Assembly: GCA_027490155.1 (NCBI GenBank)
Contig: JAIXYP010000002.1
Span: forward strand, 124,001 to 188,000
Reading direction: 5' to 3'
DNA length: 64,000 bases
Origin: Cytophagaceae bacterium
GTDB taxonomy: Bacteria; Bacteroidota; Bacteroidia; Cytophagales; Flexibacteraceae
In this document: positions 17,835 through 25,241 of the stretch, in pieces
How the letters are laid out: every line of letters begins with the position of its first letter
Position numbering within the stretch: position 1 is the first letter of the stretch
Program-made: the position numbers and the translations under genes
Notes under the pieces: generated by a model
What the model was told of the DNA's origin: nothing
What the model saw: only the letters and a program-made list of their open reading frames with translations
Database searches by the model: none

Positions 17835-19304
17835 ATGAAACTTTTTACTGTTAATGGAGCTCTAGGACTCTGCTTATCCTTTTTAGCCTTACTCCCGATG
17901 GCAGCGGAGGCACAGTTCTATTCCTGCGTCAATAAACGGCGGGTTGACTTTTTCTACACAGCCGACCCACTAGCACCTAACCAACGTAAGATGGTTAAAC
18001 TCAAAGTGGACTATATAGACCAGATTGCGTCGGACTCCATTATGTACTTAGGGCCTGAGTTTAATGGTGGCACCCGGATGAACAACCAAAATCCGCTCTG
18101 CCCCAAAACCCAAAGTCGTACCTGGGCTGGTGATGCCATCAGCCGTCGGTTCCGTGACAATGTTTTCATCAACCAAAACGGGTGGTCATTTAACCTGAAG
18201 TGGAACGTCAGTCTAGGTCGGAGTTTCCAGTTTAACACCTGGAACACCGACTCCATCAGGATGCAGCTCACGCTCAGCGCTGTCGAGCTAAGTAATTACT
18301 TTGGTCGCCCTGATAGCGTCAGGATCTTCACGATCAACCGTATTGACGCCCAAGGGAATGTTGTGCCCCACCTCTTTAATGGCAAGACGATCATCGTCAG
18401 CAAAAACTTTGGCCTAGTTAAGGGATACCAGATGAACTTGTTCCCTTACGACACCAATACCGTTTGGCGAGCTAGCGCTGCCACACCACAACTGCCATAT
18501 GCGACACTACGCAGCCGGGAGATTTACGGTATGGCCACAGGGGATGAGTACCATATCGTTACCTATTGTCCTGCATGTGCAGGGCCTGGAGGACCGATCA
18601 AATACACGAAGCGCAAAGTAACTGCCGTTGACAACTCAATCCCGACGGAGGCAACTTTTACCTTTGCTGATAGCGTCAAAATAGGGAATGGCATCACTTC
18701 ATTCAGCACCAAAACACAGCGCATCGTTTATACTGATCTAGCCTATCTGGACAGTTCTACGTTCGCTCAAATAACAAGGGGAGCGGCTAGGCCCTATAGC
18801 CGGGTGATCTTGTTCCAGCGTGTTGATGCTCTTGGTAATCGCCTAAAAGTGCAGGATACTGCCGCCTGGGTTGAGGATGCAACTGGCGGTTTAGGCTGTT
18901 TCCGGAGCCCCCAAAATGTAGGACTTGGCAATTATCGTTACTTCGAGAAGGCAGGTGGGCCATGGTCAGAAAACAGTGGCGAAACAGACGAACTTGCCTA
19001 CATCAGCAATAGCGCGGGCGTTAAAGGCACACCTATCTACTTAGGGGGAACAGTGGTCGGCCTCAGCACTGCATCACGGCTTAAAACGCTCAGCATCCTA
19101 CCCAACCCAGCAACCGAATCGGCACGACTAGTGCTACCAACAGATGCTCAGATAGTCAACATAAGAGCCTATGATGCCAATGGCAAAACCATTGAACTAG
19201 GTACAAGCCCTAGCCTTGACCTGACAAGCATGGCTAAGGGCCTCTATCACCTGAAGGTGGAGACCGACAAAGGCCATCATAGTAGCCGGTTGGTGGTGCA
19301 GTAA
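17835..19304 (+). CDS. Secreted protein of unknown function with T9SS sorting domain
   Basis: 489 residues. Signal peptide LCLSFLALLPMAAEAQ, then a cysteine-containing region (FYSCVNKRRVDFFY). The body of about 400 residues has no family I recognise; it contains YCPACAGPGGP. It ends in a type-A T9SS sorting domain (LSILPNPATESARLVLP, then LTSMAKGLYHLKVE, then SRLVVQ). It would cross the outer membrane through the T9SS and be anchored or released. No operon partners are evident: a strong terminator follows and 513 bases separate it from the giant adhesin. Adhesin or structural surface protein are both possible. Confidence 0.83.
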   Translation: MKLFTVNGALGLCLSFLALLPMAAEAQFYSCVNKRRVDFFYTADPLAPNQRKMVKLKVDYIDQIASDSIMYLGPEFNGGTRMNNQNPLCPKTQSRTWAGDAISRRFRDNVFINQNGWSFNLKWNVSLGRSFQFNTWNTDSIRMQLTLSAVELSNYFGRPDSVRIFTINRIDAQGNVVPHLFNGKTIIVSKNFGLVKGYQMNLFPYDTNTVWRASAATPQLPYATLRSREIYGMATGDEYHIVTYCPACAGPGGPIKYTKRKVTAVDNSIPTEATFTFADSVKIGNGITSFSTKTQRIVYTDLAYLDSSTFAQITRGAARPYSRVILFQRVDALGNRLKVQDTAAWVEDATGGLGCFRSPQNVGLGNYRYFEKAGGPWSENSGETDELAYISNSAGVKGTPIYLGGTVVGLSTASRLKTLSILPNPATESARLVLPTDAQIVNIRAYDANGKTIELGTSPSLDLTSMAKGLYHLKVETDKGHHSSRLVVQ

Positions 19305-19817: not shown

Positions 19818-22800
19818 ATGAAGAAGCGATTACTGACCTTGGCCCTTGGCCTGGGTCTGGTAGGGTCTGGCTATGCCTTTACCAATCTGGCAGACTGGAC
19901 CGTATCAATCCGAACAGGTGTAAGCACCTTGCTAGACAAGGTTAGCTCACCAGACAAGCCAAGCCCATCGGCACTGCCTAAACCAAGTGCTCAGGGGCAA
20001 AAACTGGTTCCCATTGGGGGAAAACCACTTCCGGTTCCAGTTACTGCTCTGACAGCAACAACAGTCTGCCAAGGACAAACTGTAACGCTAAGTGCCCCAA
20101 GTGGCTACAGCCAATATCTCTGGAGCAATGGCGAAACCACCCAAACCATTAACCCTACCGTTAGCGGACATTATACCGTACGGGTTGCTGGGCCTAATGG
20201 TGTGTTCTCGGATACACTTGGTGGTGCTTATAACTCTGGTGTGACCATCTACCCAATAGGTGCAACTTCCGAAGACAGTATCTGGATGTTTGTAGACCCA
20301 ACAGGCACTTGTCCATTGGCCGTCAACAATGCAAACCAAAGCCTAGTTGGTGCGACACAAATGCGTGCCCACGCTGGTGTTAGGACCAACAACAACAACT
20401 TCCAGAACGTAGTAGCTGCTAATGACGGCAATCCTAACTCGCCATCATTGTTTTCATTGGATGCCAACAGAGGCTGGGTGAAAGGCTACAAACCACGCAC
20501 GTATCACAATGTAGCAGGTGCTACTACAATCCAGGCTCTAACGTTTGTGTTAACTGGAAATGCCCAAAACGGCGGCTGGTTCCCGAAGGAAGGCAAGAAC
20601 GTCTCCGGCTGTAGTGATTTTGTCATCAACCTGCCTATCGTTGGTGCAGCTCGTAAGAGCCCTTTTGGTGTAACTGTCACATTTTCTGCCCCTGCAGCAG
20701 CACCAACCATTTCTGCCAACCGCACGATCCAGAACGACTCGATCGTGATGTGTCAAGGTCAGTCCGTCACACTGACTGCTGCTGGCGGCGCAGGAGGATA
20801 TAACTGGAGCACAGCCGAAGTCGGAAGCTCTATTACTGTAAACACTAGCGGCATTTATAGCGTCAACAGCAATGTTGGTGCTTGTACGTCTGCTACTTCA
20901 ACCCCTGTTACAGTAGTGGTGACCAACAGCGGCATTGCTGTTCCAACAATCACTGCTGGTAGCGCCCTAACATTCTGCCCAGGTGGTTCAGTAGTCCTTG
21001 ACGCTGGCGTTGCCCCGGCAGGTCATAAATATCGCTGGTCAAATGGCGATACCACCCGTACAACAACTGTACGTCGCTCTGGCAGCTTCACTGCCTCGTT
21101 CCTAGATGGTGAGTGCCTTTCAAACCCAAGCAATGCACTAGTTGTCAATGTATTGGCCAAACCACTCCCAGTCCAGGTAACAGCTAGCGGACCAACGAGT
21201 TTCTGTACAGGTGGCTCTGTCCAACTGTCTGCCCCAGTAGGCTACAGCCAATATCTCTGGAGCAATGGCGAGACGACTCGCACCATCAACGCTACCGTCG
21301 CTGGCCATTACACAGTACGTGTTGCCAATGCCAACGGCTGTTTCTCTGATACACTTGCTGGTACCTACACATCTGGCCTTACTGTTTATCCAGTTGGCGC
21401 TACAGGCGATGATAGCGTATATATGTTCCTCAATCCTGCGCTTACCTGCCCACTGCCTACATCCAATGCATTCCAGTCATTGTTCGGGGCAACTTCAGTT
21501 CGTGCTCACCTTGGTGTCCGGATTAACAACAACAATTTCTCGAATGTTGTAGGTGCCAATGATGGCAACCCGAACTCACCGTCCTTGTTCCAGTCAAATG
21601 GCCCAGGCGCATGGGTAAAACGTTTTGTACCTCGCACCTACAACGGTGTCAACCCTGCCACCCCAATTCAGGCACTTACCTTTGTCTTGACTGGCAACCC
21701 ACAAAATGGTGGCTGGTTCGACAAAGAAGGCAAAGTACAGCCAGGCTGCGGTGACTTCGTGATCAACTTCCCGATCGTTGCATCACCAGTACGTAGCCCA
21801 TTTGGTGTAACAGTATCAATCAACAGCACCCCTGCGGTTCCGACTGCTACCCCTGCTGGCCCAACAACTTTCTGTCAAGGTCAAGGCGTACGTCTTGTAG
21901 CCTCAGGTGGCACATCTGGTAACTATATTTGGTCTAACGGCGATGTATCTGATACCCTCCGTGCTACAGTTGCTGGCAACTATTCTGTGCGTTCTTTCGC
22001 TGGTGCGTGTACATCAGCAGCATCGGCTCCTGTTACTATCACGATCACCTCTTCGGCTGCACCAATTATCCAAGCAGCTGGTCCTACTACATTCTGTAGT
22101 GGCGGTAGTGTTGTTCTGACAACGCCTGCCATTGTAGGTGCTACTTATGAGTGGAGTAACGGCGCAACCACCCGTTCAATCACCGTCAAAACAAGCGGAA
22201 GCTATACCGTACGTGTTTATCGCAATGGCTGCGGCAGTGCCCTTAGCACCCCAACCGTCGTTAACATCTTAGCTCGTCCATTGCCAGTACAGGTCGTAGC
22301 AAGCGGACCAACCGCAATTTGCCCAGGAGACTCGGTAACACTATCTGCACCAATGGGATATACTTCCTATCGTTGGAACAATGGTGCCACCACACGTACC
22401 ATCAAGGTCAAGTCTGCTGGCAATTTTACCGTCCGTGTCGCCAATGCAAATGGCTGTATGTCTGATACCTTAGGTGGTACGACAACCTCTGGATTGACAG
22501 TTTATCCGATCGGTGCAACCGCTGACGATAGCGTCTTCTTGTTCCTGAACCCTAGCAAAACCTGCCCATTGCCAGCTAACAATGCATTCCAGAGCCTTGT
22601 CGGCGCTAGCGAAGTTCGTGCTCACCTTGGTGTCCGGATTGGCGGAAGTGGATTCCAGTATGTTGTTGGTGCCAATGATGGCAACACCAACTCTAGGTCT
22701 AAATTCACAGCCCTGAATGACGGTTGGGTTAAAGGTTTCATGCCACGCACCTACAATGGTGTGCCAGGCAACACCGCCATCGAAGCCCTTACCTTCGTAT

Positions 22801-25241
22801 TGACAGGTGGTCCACAATCTGGCGGCTGGTTCAACAAAGAAGGCAAGCAGACACCATTCTGCTCTGACTTTGTAATCCCTTTCCCTATTGTAGCTTCTGC
22901 TGGTACTAGTCCATTTGGCATTAGTGTTACAATGAAGGCACGTGCTGTAGCTCCGGCTATTGTTGGTACTGCCAATATCTGTGCTGGCACCCAGACTACC
23001 TTATCGACTTCACAGCCACTTACTGCTAACGAAGTCTATGTTTGGAACAACGGTGCAGCCACAGCAAGCATCAATGTTTCTGCAGCTGGCACCTACTCTC
23101 TCCGGATTCTGAATACAACAACAGGTTGCTTCAGCCCTGTGAGTAACAGCATCAATGTCACTGTAACCCCGGCTCCAAGCACTCCACTTGTTTCAACCTC
23201 TGGTCCTACGACGTTCAACGTTGGCGGATTCGTGAACTTGACAGCATCTAACGGTGCTAGTAGCTACCTATGGTCTAATGGCCTGACAACGCAATCGATC
23301 CGTGTCCGGACCGCTGGCAACTACTCTGTCCAAGCTATCAGCAATGGTTGTACATCTGCAGCTAGCACCCCTGTGACTGTCACTGTAAACCGTACCAGCT
23401 CTGACCTTGTTGTAAGCGATGCCCAATCGAATGGCGGCACTTTCTATAACGTAACTATTGATGCTTCTGGCTTCCTTACGCTCAGCGCTCCGTTGGTTGT
23501 AGAAGGCACCATGACCGTCAATGGCGTACTCAATACAGGTGGGTTTAGCATTTCAGGTCCTGGCGACTTTATGCTGGCCGATGGTGCAACACTCGTTGTC
23601 ACCAGCCCAGCTGGTATCAACGCTACTGGCAACACTGGCGACATCACTGTTGTTGGTAACCGTATGATCAATGCAGGTGCTAATATCTTCTACGGAGGTA
23701 CAGGTCCGCAAGTAACCGGAACTGCCCTTCCTGCCAAGATCAAATCGATCTCGATTGGAAATAGCGGTGGCGTCACCTTGACATCCCCTACCTCTGTAAC
23801 CGAGAAACTGGTTTTGGAAGTTGGTAATTTCAACCTCAACAACCGTGTATTCACGATGGTGTCTGATGCCAATGGCACAGCTTATCTTGACCAAGGTGCT
23901 GGCAACGGTAGCGTCAGTAACGCATCTAACTTCACTGTAGAGCGTTGGATTAATCGTGCTAGGACAAGCTCTGATGGTGGTTGGTTCTTTGTGGGCGCCC
24001 CTGTCCAGAACTTTGCCGCAAGTGGTTGGTCTGCATTTAACGTCTTTTCTAGCAACACTTTCAACACAAGTGTAGCAGGTGGCTCGTCGTTGTTCTTGTA
24101 TGATGCTACCGCCCCAGCCAGTGCCAATAACAATGGCTACGTTAAAGTATCTAGCGCCAGCACCGTTATTGCCCCAGGTGTAGGTGCCCGTCTCTGGATC
24201 CGTAACGGTAACTTCTTTAATGTAGGACAAGGTGATAGCAGGCTCAGAGCTAAAGGCGCCCCAGTATTGGGTACCTACAACTTCCCGAACCTGCGCTATT
24301 GCGCCTCTGGTTGTACCTTCGCTAACGAAAACGGCTTCAACCTTGTCGCTAACCCTTATGCAAGCGCCATCGACTGGGATGATGCCTCTTGGACCAAAAC
24401 TAACCTCGAAGACGCCATCTATATCTATGACTTCCTCAATGGCCGCTACACGACCTACATCAATGGTGTTGGTGTTAATGGTGGTAGCAACATGATTGCG
24501 TCGTCACAAGGTTTCTTCGTTTGGGCCAATGCAGCTTCGCCAGCCTTGACTATCCAGAAAGAAGCTGCTAAGGCAGCCAACGCATCGTTCCGCCGTGCTG
24601 GAGCAGTGACCAATGTATTGCACCTGACACTCAGCAATGCTGCAAATCAGTCAGACGAATCTGCTGTTCGCTTCAGCCCAACAGCTACTGCTGGGTACGA
24701 TGCCAACCTTGATGGTCGTAACCTTGCTGGTGACAACCTAGACATCGCAACGATTGGTGCCAATGGTGAGTCACTTTCTGTCGATAGCCGCCCTGTTGTT
24801 GGTACAAGCACCATTCCGCTTGCGCTGAAACTTACAGGATCAGGTATCATCACCTTCAGTGGTCTCAATTCGTTTGACAATGGCGTTAGCCTCAGCCTGT
24901 TGGATCAAACCACTGGCCAGACGACTCCAGTTGCCGAAGGCCTTCAGGTTGCTGTCAATGGTGGTAATCGTTATGCCCTTGTGGTCAATAACGTTACTAG
25001 CCTCAACAACAATTTGGCTAATAGCTTCAGCATCTATCCGAATCCGACTCGTGACCAACTGACCCTCAACTTTGCGGATGCCGCCAGCCACAAGCTGACC
25101 CTACGCAACACCTTGGGCCAAGTAGTTTACAGCTCGACCGAGGAGGGCAACACTGCTGTCATCAACATCAGCCATTTGGCTGCTGGTGTCTACTACCTAG
25201 ACATCCCAGGTTATGGCAAACAAAAAGTTGTCAAAGAATAA
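19818..25241 (+). CDS. Giant repetitive T9SS-secreted surface protein
   Basis: 1807 residues. Signal-peptide-like start (LLTLALGLGLVGSGYAF). Three copies of a roughly 220-residue cassette lie at about 75-295, 454-673 and 825-1050. Each has an Ig/PKD-like unit (VxLSAPxGYxxYxWxNGxTT pattern) followed by a 150-residue beta-rich module (VRAHLGVRI, VVGANDG, ALTFVLTG, GGWFxKEGK). Further Ig-like units with a cysteine after GPTTFC fill the gaps. Residues about 1200-1400 resemble beta-helix-like filler. The last about 75 residues are a type-A sorting domain (FSIYPNPTRDQLTL, ending KQKVVKE). Likely an adhesin or glycan-binding surface fibre; function is inferred from architecture only. Confidence 0.85.
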   Translation: MKKRLLTLALGLGLVGSGYAFTNLADWTVSIRTGVSTLLDKVSSPDKPSPSALPKPSAQGQKLVPIGGKPLPVPVTALTATTVCQGQTVTLSAPSGYSQYLWSNGETTQTINPTVSGHYTVRVAGPNGVFSDTLGGAYNSGVTIYPIGATSEDSIWMFVDPTGTCPLAVNNANQSLVGATQMRAHAGVRTNNNNFQNVVAANDGNPNSPSLFSLDANRGWVKGYKPRTYHNVAGATTIQALTFVLTGNAQNGGWFPKEGKNVSGCSDFVINLPIVGAARKSPFGVTVTFSAPAAAPTISANRTIQNDSIVMCQGQSVTLTAAGGAGGYNWSTAEVGSSITVNTSGIYSVNSNVGACTSATSTPVTVVVTNSGIAVPTITAGSALTFCPGGSVVLDAGVAPAGHKYRWSNGDTTRTTTVRRSGSFTASFLDGECLSNPSNALVVNVLAKPLPVQVTASGPTSFCTGGSVQLSAPVGYSQYLWSNGETTRTINATVAGHYTVRVANANGCFSDTLAGTYTSGLTVYPVGATGDDSVYMFLNPALTCPLPTSNAFQSLFGATSVRAHLGVRINNNNFSNVVGANDGNPNSPSLFQSNGPGAWVKRFVPRTYNGVNPATPIQALTFVLTGNPQNGGWFDKEGKVQPGCGDFVINFPIVASPVRSPFGVTVSINSTPAVPTATPAGPTTFCQGQGVRLVASGGTSGNYIWSNGDVSDTLRATVAGNYSVRSFAGACTSAASAPVTITITSSAAPIIQAAGPTTFCSGGSVVLTTPAIVGATYEWSNGATTRSITVKTSGSYTVRVYRNGCGSALSTPTVVNILARPLPVQVVASGPTAICPGDSVTLSAPMGYTSYRWNNGATTRTIKVKSAGNFTVRVANANGCMSDTLGGTTTSGLTVYPIGATADDSVFLFLNPSKTCPLPANNAFQSLVGASEVRAHLGVRIGGSGFQYVVGANDGNTNSRSKFTALNDGWVKGFMPRTYNGVPGNTAIEALTFVLTGGPQSGGWFNKEGKQTPFCSDFVIPFPIVASAGTSPFGISVTMKARAVAPAIVGTANICAGTQTTLSTSQPLTANEVYVWNNGAATASINVSAAGTYSLRILNTTTGCFSPVSNSINVTVTPAPSTPLVSTSGPTTFNVGGFVNLTASNGASSYLWSNGLTTQSIRVRTAGNYSVQAISNGCTSAASTPVTVTVNRTSSDLVVSDAQSNGGTFYNVTIDASGFLTLSAPLVVEGTMTVNGVLNTGGFSISGPGDFMLADGATLVVTSPAGINATGNTGDITVVGNRMINAGANIFYGGTGPQVTGTALPAKIKSISIGNSGGVTLTSPTSVTEKLVLEVGNFNLNNRVFTMVSDANGTAYLDQGAGNGSVSNASNFTVERWINRARTSSDGGWFFVGAPVQNFAASGWSAFNVFSSNTFNTSVAGGSSLFLYDATAPASANNNGYVKVSSASTVIAPGVGARLWIRNGNFFNVGQGDSRLRAKGAPVLGTYNFPNLRYCASGCTFANENGFNLVANPYASAIDWDDASWTKTNLEDAIYIYDFLNGRYTTYINGVGVNGGSNMIASSQGFFVWANAASPALTIQKEAAKAANASFRRAGAVTNVLHLTLSNAANQSDESAVRFSPTATAGYDANLDGRNLAGDNLDIATIGANGESLSVDSRPVVGTSTIPLALKLTGSGIITFSGLNSFDNGVSLSLLDQTTGQTTPVAEGLQVAVNGGNRYALVVNNVTSLNNNLANSFSIYPNPTRDQLTLNFADAASHKLTLRNTLGQVVYSSTEEGNTAVINISHLAAGVYYLDIPGYGKQKVVKE
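20030..22950 (+). repeat. Three imperfect DNA repeats in the adhesin gene
   Basis: Units begin near 20030, 21163 and 22278, each about 670 bp, spaced about 1.13 kb apart. The first two share a 32-base identical stretch (20103-20134 and 21240-21271). Divergence is otherwise substantial, so the cassette is an old duplication with possible later gene conversion. Confidence 0.8.

Follow-up and report, generated by a model that had tools for sequence, protein, structure and literature searches.

A putative T9SS-exported glycan-binding protein with three CBM98-like modules on an Ig-like stalk in a Cytophagaceae bacterium

What might a module of about 150 residues, present three times in a large protein that carries a T9SS sorting tail, do for a Cytophagaceae bacterium? 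Starch handling by Bacteroidota is best known from lipoprotein Sus systems, in which SusE and SusF are thought to work beside SusG. The protein studied here is encoded in a 64,000-nucleotide stretch of contig JAIXYP010000002.1 (assembly GCA_027490155.1; hereafter the window) by an ORF of 1807 aa (19818..25241, plus strand, as are all features of this gene), recognized from its translation and from Pfam matches to Ig_7 and Por_Secre_tail. A first-pass annotation of the DNA had proposed a repeated, beta-rich, starch-binding-type module, resembling those of SusE/SusF and paired with Ig-like units in a T9SS cargo protein, and had left the module without a domain name.

Three of the protein's own Ig units served to seed an HMM, which located nine Ig-like units in all and gave the order Ig, module, three Ig, module, three Ig, module, two Ig, a region of ~550 residues and a sorting tail. 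A probable signal peptide, recognized by eye (19818..19880), is followed by Ig-like unit 1 (20040..20216) and module copy 1 (aa 141–292; 20238..20693), the latter delimited by DNA repeats, a module HMM and pairwise identity. Ig-like units 2, 3 and 4 (20733..20924, 20949..21152 and 21177..21353) lead to copy 2 (aa 520–671; 21375..21830), units 5, 6 and 7 (21849..22049, 22068..22268 and 22293..22469) lead to copy 3 (aa 892–1042; 22491..22943), and units 8 and 9 (22965..23168 and 23190..23390) complete the repeat region. The C-terminal region (aa 1192–1738; 23391..25031) has no Pfam match above cut-off; its first part looks beta-helix-like by eye. The T9SS type A sorting domain (aa 1739–1803; 25032..25226) matches Por_Secre_tail of Pfam (E 1e-10) and TIGR04183 of NCBIfam (E 3.7e-9), and SprA is encoded in the same genome (2362.6 bits). 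Together, the tail and SprA support the proposal that the protein is a T9SS cargo, as judged from sequence.

The threefold repetition is real. DNA repeat families D2 and D3 cover the three module places with 75–85% identity to their reference copy, and the modules start 1137 and 1116 nt apart, a period of 379 and 372 aa. Pairwise identity between modules is 98/151, 92/151 and 101/151 residues (61–67%), with scores of 484–527 against a maximum of 57 in 200 shuffles per pair; among 100 shuffles of the whole protein the best listed match to the module HMM had an E-value of 1.1. Two of the four motifs first assigned to every cassette, ALTFVLTG and GGWFxKEGK, do occur in all three copies, whereas VRAHLGVRI and VVGANDG are limited to copies 2 and 3, copy 1 having MRAHAGVRT and VVAANDG. 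Similarly, an Ig-like unit directly precedes each module, as the pairing of one Ig unit with one module had implied, but three Ig-like units separate successive copies, and the cassette that repeats is therefore one module with three Ig units (layout 1-M-3-M-3-M-2). Compared with a same-genus orthologue that is split over two contigs, the modules have dN/dS values of 0.014–0.05 (dS 0.51–1.23), which indicates purifying selection. The constraint is not specific to the modules, since the Ig stretches are held as strongly (0.015–0.09) and the entire repeat region is thus conserved; the value for the C-terminal region is 0.133.

Structure prediction followed by a fold search, the check that had been suggested for the module, returned a beta-sandwich whose best VIA row for both modelled copies was BoGH13ASus. 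The AF2 model of copy 2 (m538dba26a78f), built from ten close sequences, has a pLDDT of 74.0 and a pTM of 0.69, and that of copy 3 together with Ig-like unit 7 (mb8589904a1a1) a pLDDT of 78.7 and a pTM of 0.66; both are of moderate confidence. In Foldseek, BoGH13ASus chains filled the 11 best rows for copy 2 (best E 4.7e-4, probability 1.00), at low TM-scores of 0.46–0.52 of the query. VIA-align placed the CBM98 domain of Bacteroides ovatus BoGH13ASus first (Z 11.2, rmsd 2.4, 112 residues), followed by plant isoamylase (Z 8.4 and 7.9). For the two-domain copy 3 model, BoGH13ASus was again the best VIA row (Z 10.8, rmsd 2.5, 111 residues, chain residues 44–159); in Foldseek this model ranked Ig proteins first, and BoGH13ASus was absent among the 50 best rows. 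Both VIA matches begin at chain residue 44–46. The part that BoGH13ASus has in common with an amylase from the window's own genome by phmmer is chain 138–734, so the matched region, lying upstream of it, is the first of two N-terminal modules. That amylase has a CBM48-like match just before its catalytic domain (E 0.024, below cut-off), and the architecture is reportedly CBM98-CBM48-GH13; from the position of this match and the reported order we take the first module to be CBM98. A CBM98-like beta-sandwich for the window modules is therefore well supported by the predicted models, as is the assignment of the fold to a carbohydrate-binding class. An enzyme or enzyme-assembly (dockerin-like) domain, for which a length of ~150 aa and conserved E, K and H residues might speak, is very improbable given a fold that matches a binding module and a protein in which Pfam finds no catalytic family and NCBIfam none above cut-off.

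Sequence profiles point in the same direction as the fold. We compared a profile of 32 rows that includes amylase-borne and DUF4961-type domains (A1), one of 23 T9SS-type rows only (A2) and one of 28 amylase-borne rows (A6). Against the PDB, A1 matched 8dge/8dl1 (CBM98) at E 3e-5 and A6 matched residues 32–132 of the same entries at E 1.8e-13. A2 had no match to 8dge at E ≤ 10, its sole match being an outer membrane protein at E 0.32, and the sequence of window copy 2 had no PDB match at E ≤ 10. Since A2 lacks the direct CBM98 match that A6 has, sequence kinship between module and CBM98 runs through the amylase-borne intermediates, to which A2 aligns in hhalign with a probability of 99.5. At E ≤ 0.1, 8 of the 23 A2 rows and 26 of the 28 A6 rows matched Pfam DUF4961 (PF16328), with a best E of 2.1e-6 among the A2 rows and over the last ~100 of its 283 model positions only. 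Window copy 2 alone had no DUF4961 match at E ≤ 0.1, and the whole window protein was not listed at E ≤ 1 and does not reach the gathering cut-off of 27.1. The SusE profile (PF14292) likewise did not list the window protein at E ≤ 1, a result compatible with distant kinship. The further PDB matches of A6 were non-significant (E 0.027 and 0.034 for Sas20, 0.099 for an X25 module of Sca5, 0.6 for galectins), where Sas20 and Sca5 are named after PMC9112005. The suggested likeness to SusE/SusF thus gives way to CBM98/DUF4961 as the nearest family. The modules are nameless in Pfam, and NCBIfam names only the sorting tail above cut-off. The closest named family is CBM98, which binds maltooligosaccharides (PMC11633381), but the window copies form part of a clade distinct from it, so that membership in a named family with a known function, the finding that was to refute the first-pass proposal, holds by half. 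We conclude that the module is very probably a distant homologue of maltooligosaccharide-binding CBM98.

The module is not confined to the window, as the profile search proposed for Bacteroidota bears out. Iterated-HMM E-values are inflated by construction and were used just for collecting copies. Ten significant copies, spread over four ORFs, are encoded in the window's own genome: three in the window ORF, five in a 1941-aa protein (C56), one in a 1578-aa paralogue with GEVED domains (C41; L039 3641-8374) and one in a 279-aa protein (C17); an eleventh match, at E 0.145, was dropped. A single-copy query matched 7 of 59 genomes at E ≤ 0.001, and A2 matched all 11 genomes of the family at the same threshold and, across the class, at least 38 of 395 at E ≤ 1e-6 (own genome included each time), the class counts being lower bounds because at most nine candidates were scored per genome. 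Beyond the own genome, E-values below 1e-18 occurred in the class sample in G116 and G183 only. A2 also matched five ORFs in five family genomes (L062–L066; E 6e-10 to 4.5e-8), each with a GH13 catalytic domain; with these five included, 24 loci were checked (L062–L066, L070–L088), and such a domain was present in 20. Six pattern matches in viral contigs included no relative, and the three loci that the pattern picked up in named genomes all belong to one Cytophagaceae MAG. The largest number of copies in a large protein is seven, in G005; a seven-copy protein of 2358 aa (L043 2240-9313) has Big_7 units in place of Ig_7 and scores 66.7 over its whole length against DUF4961, above the cut-off. 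The module also occurs in a two-module protein of G002 (L056) and in short proteins with little beyond a secretion tail, in which a spacer would have no purpose. This occurrence, together with a CBM98 match that stands above the other beta-sandwich rows, makes it improbable that the module is a structural spacer of a long stalk that binds nothing, although such a role would agree with the other beta-sandwiches that follow in the VIA rows for copy 2 (amylases, cytokine receptors and others, Z 5.0–8.4), with the many Ig units of the protein, which are as constrained as the modules, and with the erosion of the binding motif described below.

We next consider what lies beside the module genes. At nine loci, a protein of short or medium length carries a single T9SS-type module (L040, L042, L045, L046, L047, L048, L051, L089 and L090), and at four of them (L040, L042, L045 and L089) a GH13 gene lies close by, within searched flanks of ~2 to 7 kb. 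For about 1.4% of the own genome a GH13 match lies no more than 5 kb away; the binomial probability is 4.9e-6 for 4/9 and 9.7e-5 for 3/7 (L040 merged with L042 and L046 with L048), values that apply the own-genome background to all genomes and to flanks of which some differ from 5 kb. L048, flagged as an amylase via a shared tail, was not taken as a GH13 case, and L056 is outside the neighbour counts. L088 and L091, single modules of the amylase-like clade, are also near GH13, giving 6/11. The C17 single-module gene of the own genome sits between two T9SS amylase genes, one encoding a divergent enzyme and the other a GH13 amylase with an N-terminal domain that is itself a relative. This segment (G000:C17:40500-51500; L040 1802-8931) is a compact cluster in which a T9SS alpha-amylase and a second T9SS amylase, of GH13, flank a divergent single-module protein, and a TonB-dependent receptor follows downstream; G001 (L042) and G005 (L045) have the trio as well. 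The single-module neighbourhood of G116 holds phosphofructokinase, an esterase, cyclomaltodextrinase and a SusD protein. A phosphofructokinase gene stands beside the single-module gene at L089, L090 and L091, in three genomes and two families.

No GH13 gene was found in the examined flanks of the five large-protein genes (window, C56, C41, and C104 and C20 of G005), nor by tblastn across the whole window. Ten window ORFs scanned between 10.4 and 34.9 kb include a primase, an AraC/DJ-1 regulator, phosphoglycerate mutase, UDP-GlcNAc 2-epimerase, a class II tRNA synthetase, an antiporter subunit and MoxR, among others. The idea that the window gene lies in a starch locus was dropped, there being no GH13 in the window and only unrelated scanned neighbours. 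Just upstream of the module gene (17835-19304) is a 489-aa protein with a T9SS sorting tail, besides which Pfam names nothing in it at E ≤ 1.

The window copies also differ from the amylase-borne domains in their putative binding residues. In a tree of 71 rows, from which eight loci were omitted as duplicates or near-copies, a group of 29 rows with support 99/89 consists of 19 from large proteins, 8 from single-module proteins and 2 from L056, and within it the window copies cluster (96/92). Many of the other forks lack resolution, and L056 sits on long branches. The W...WG motif followed here is one we infer from conservation, not one read from the CBM98 paper. Its second Trp was sought in the ten residues that follow the first aromatic; 27 of 30 amylase-borne, 14 of 17 other and 2 of 8 single-module rows (L089 and L051) have it, and so does 1 of 27 distinct large-protein copies, a count that includes same-genus orthologues and the lone C41 copy. 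L090, counted as 'other' though the tree puts it in the T9SS-type clade, retains it as well. Early-branching single modules thus keep the Trp (as WD) and large-protein copies are nearly all without it. The first aromatic is kept in all 27 large-protein copies (W in 14, F in 13) and is Phe in all three window copies. At column 90 the Tyr/Phe of amylase-borne relatives is replaced by Asn or His in the window copies. Cys occupies column 24 in 26/26 large-protein and 8/8 single-module rows, and column 129 in 16/26 and 7/8. Y60 and W72 form the platform for maltotriose in Sas20d1 (PMC9112005); W72 aligns with the first aromatic of the modules in a non-significant alignment, which we treat as a lead only.

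These changes raise the alternative that the CBM98 fold was kept and its binding face rebuilt for another ligand (another glycan, an exopolysaccharide, a glycoprotein or a metal-dependent partner), which would make the protein an adhesin and not a starch binder. The second Trp missing from 26 of 27 large-protein copies, the gained Cys, the W/F in GGWFxKEGK, the Asn/Asp-rich loops of the window copies and the large-protein genes' distance from GH13 would all fit, as would the likeness of the Ig units to those of the giant GhpA protein of Aureispira. However, of the four single-module genes linked to GH13, three (L040, L042 and L045) also lack the second Trp and still lie beside amylases, and the first position has stayed aromatic throughout the large-protein copies. 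We regard a rebuilt face with another ligand as rather unlikely, while allowing that the ligand of the window copies may differ from that of CBM98. For the family, alpha-glucan is the best guess because of the kinship to CBM98 and the GH13 linkage of single-module genes; for the window copies it is weakened by the changed motif aromatics and the distance of the gene from GH13 genes. Glycan binding by the module is likely, and alpha-glucan binding by the window copies is somewhat favoured.

Our preferred reading, held with modest confidence, is accordingly that the window protein is a non-catalytic, T9SS-exported, multivalent glycan binder, probably of alpha-glucan. T9SS would export it to the cell surface, where the Ig-like stalk would space three CBM98-related beta-sandwich modules; each module may grip glycan, and three in a row would provide avidity. 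The likeliest ligand would be an alpha-1,4-glucan (starch, glycogen or maltodextrin), held at the surface for cutting by T9SS GH13 amylases from separate genes, in the manner of SusE/SusF beside SusG and without lipoprotein anchors. Surface attachment and cooperation with amylases, like the glycan ligand, are parts that we infer. SusE/SusF, other X25 modules and Ruminococcus bromii Sas20 are likewise non-catalytic starch binders at the cell surface, as the window protein may be, but they are lipoproteins or dockerin proteins of other sequence families. CBM98, the N-terminal domain of BoGH13ASus/BoSusG (PDB 8DGE, 8DL1, 8DL2), shares with the modules the predicted fold, the H-x-G motif and the aromatic that follows it; unlike it, the window modules are not joined to an amylase, show 13–14% identity in the fold alignments, belong to a type that has added Cys and GGWFxKEGK, and stand in tandem on a T9SS stalk instead of singly on a lipoprotein enzyme. 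Likeness to the Aureispira GhpA Ig-like arrays (PDB 9FLY and others) is limited to the stalk: the Ig-like unit by copy 3 matches them at Z 8.7, with up to 35% identity over 74 residues, but human Ig receptors score equally high, and there is no sign of a grappling hook here.

If this reading is right, starch handling at the surface would have a second strategy in the form of a purely binding, T9SS-exported array of an amylase-type module, a lipoprotein-free counterpart of SusE/SusF that holds alpha-glucan or another polymer. The T9SS-type modules might, tentatively, constitute a separate binding family akin to the CBM98-like amylase domains, free of enzymes, with a rebuilt face and up to sevenfold on Ig-like stalks. 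Among the matches listed in literature searches on CBM98, GH13_47, DUF4961 and T9SS with starch binding or amylases, titles and the opening parts of abstracts contained no description of this clade. The Pfam-nameless module of the window is now anchored structurally, which makes its ligand directly testable, and its relatives range from an enzyme-borne domain through a single secreted module to a tandem array, along which the evolution of the binding face can be traced. A 2630-aa ORF of G152 (L092 4584-12473) carries one WG-type module near its C-terminal part.
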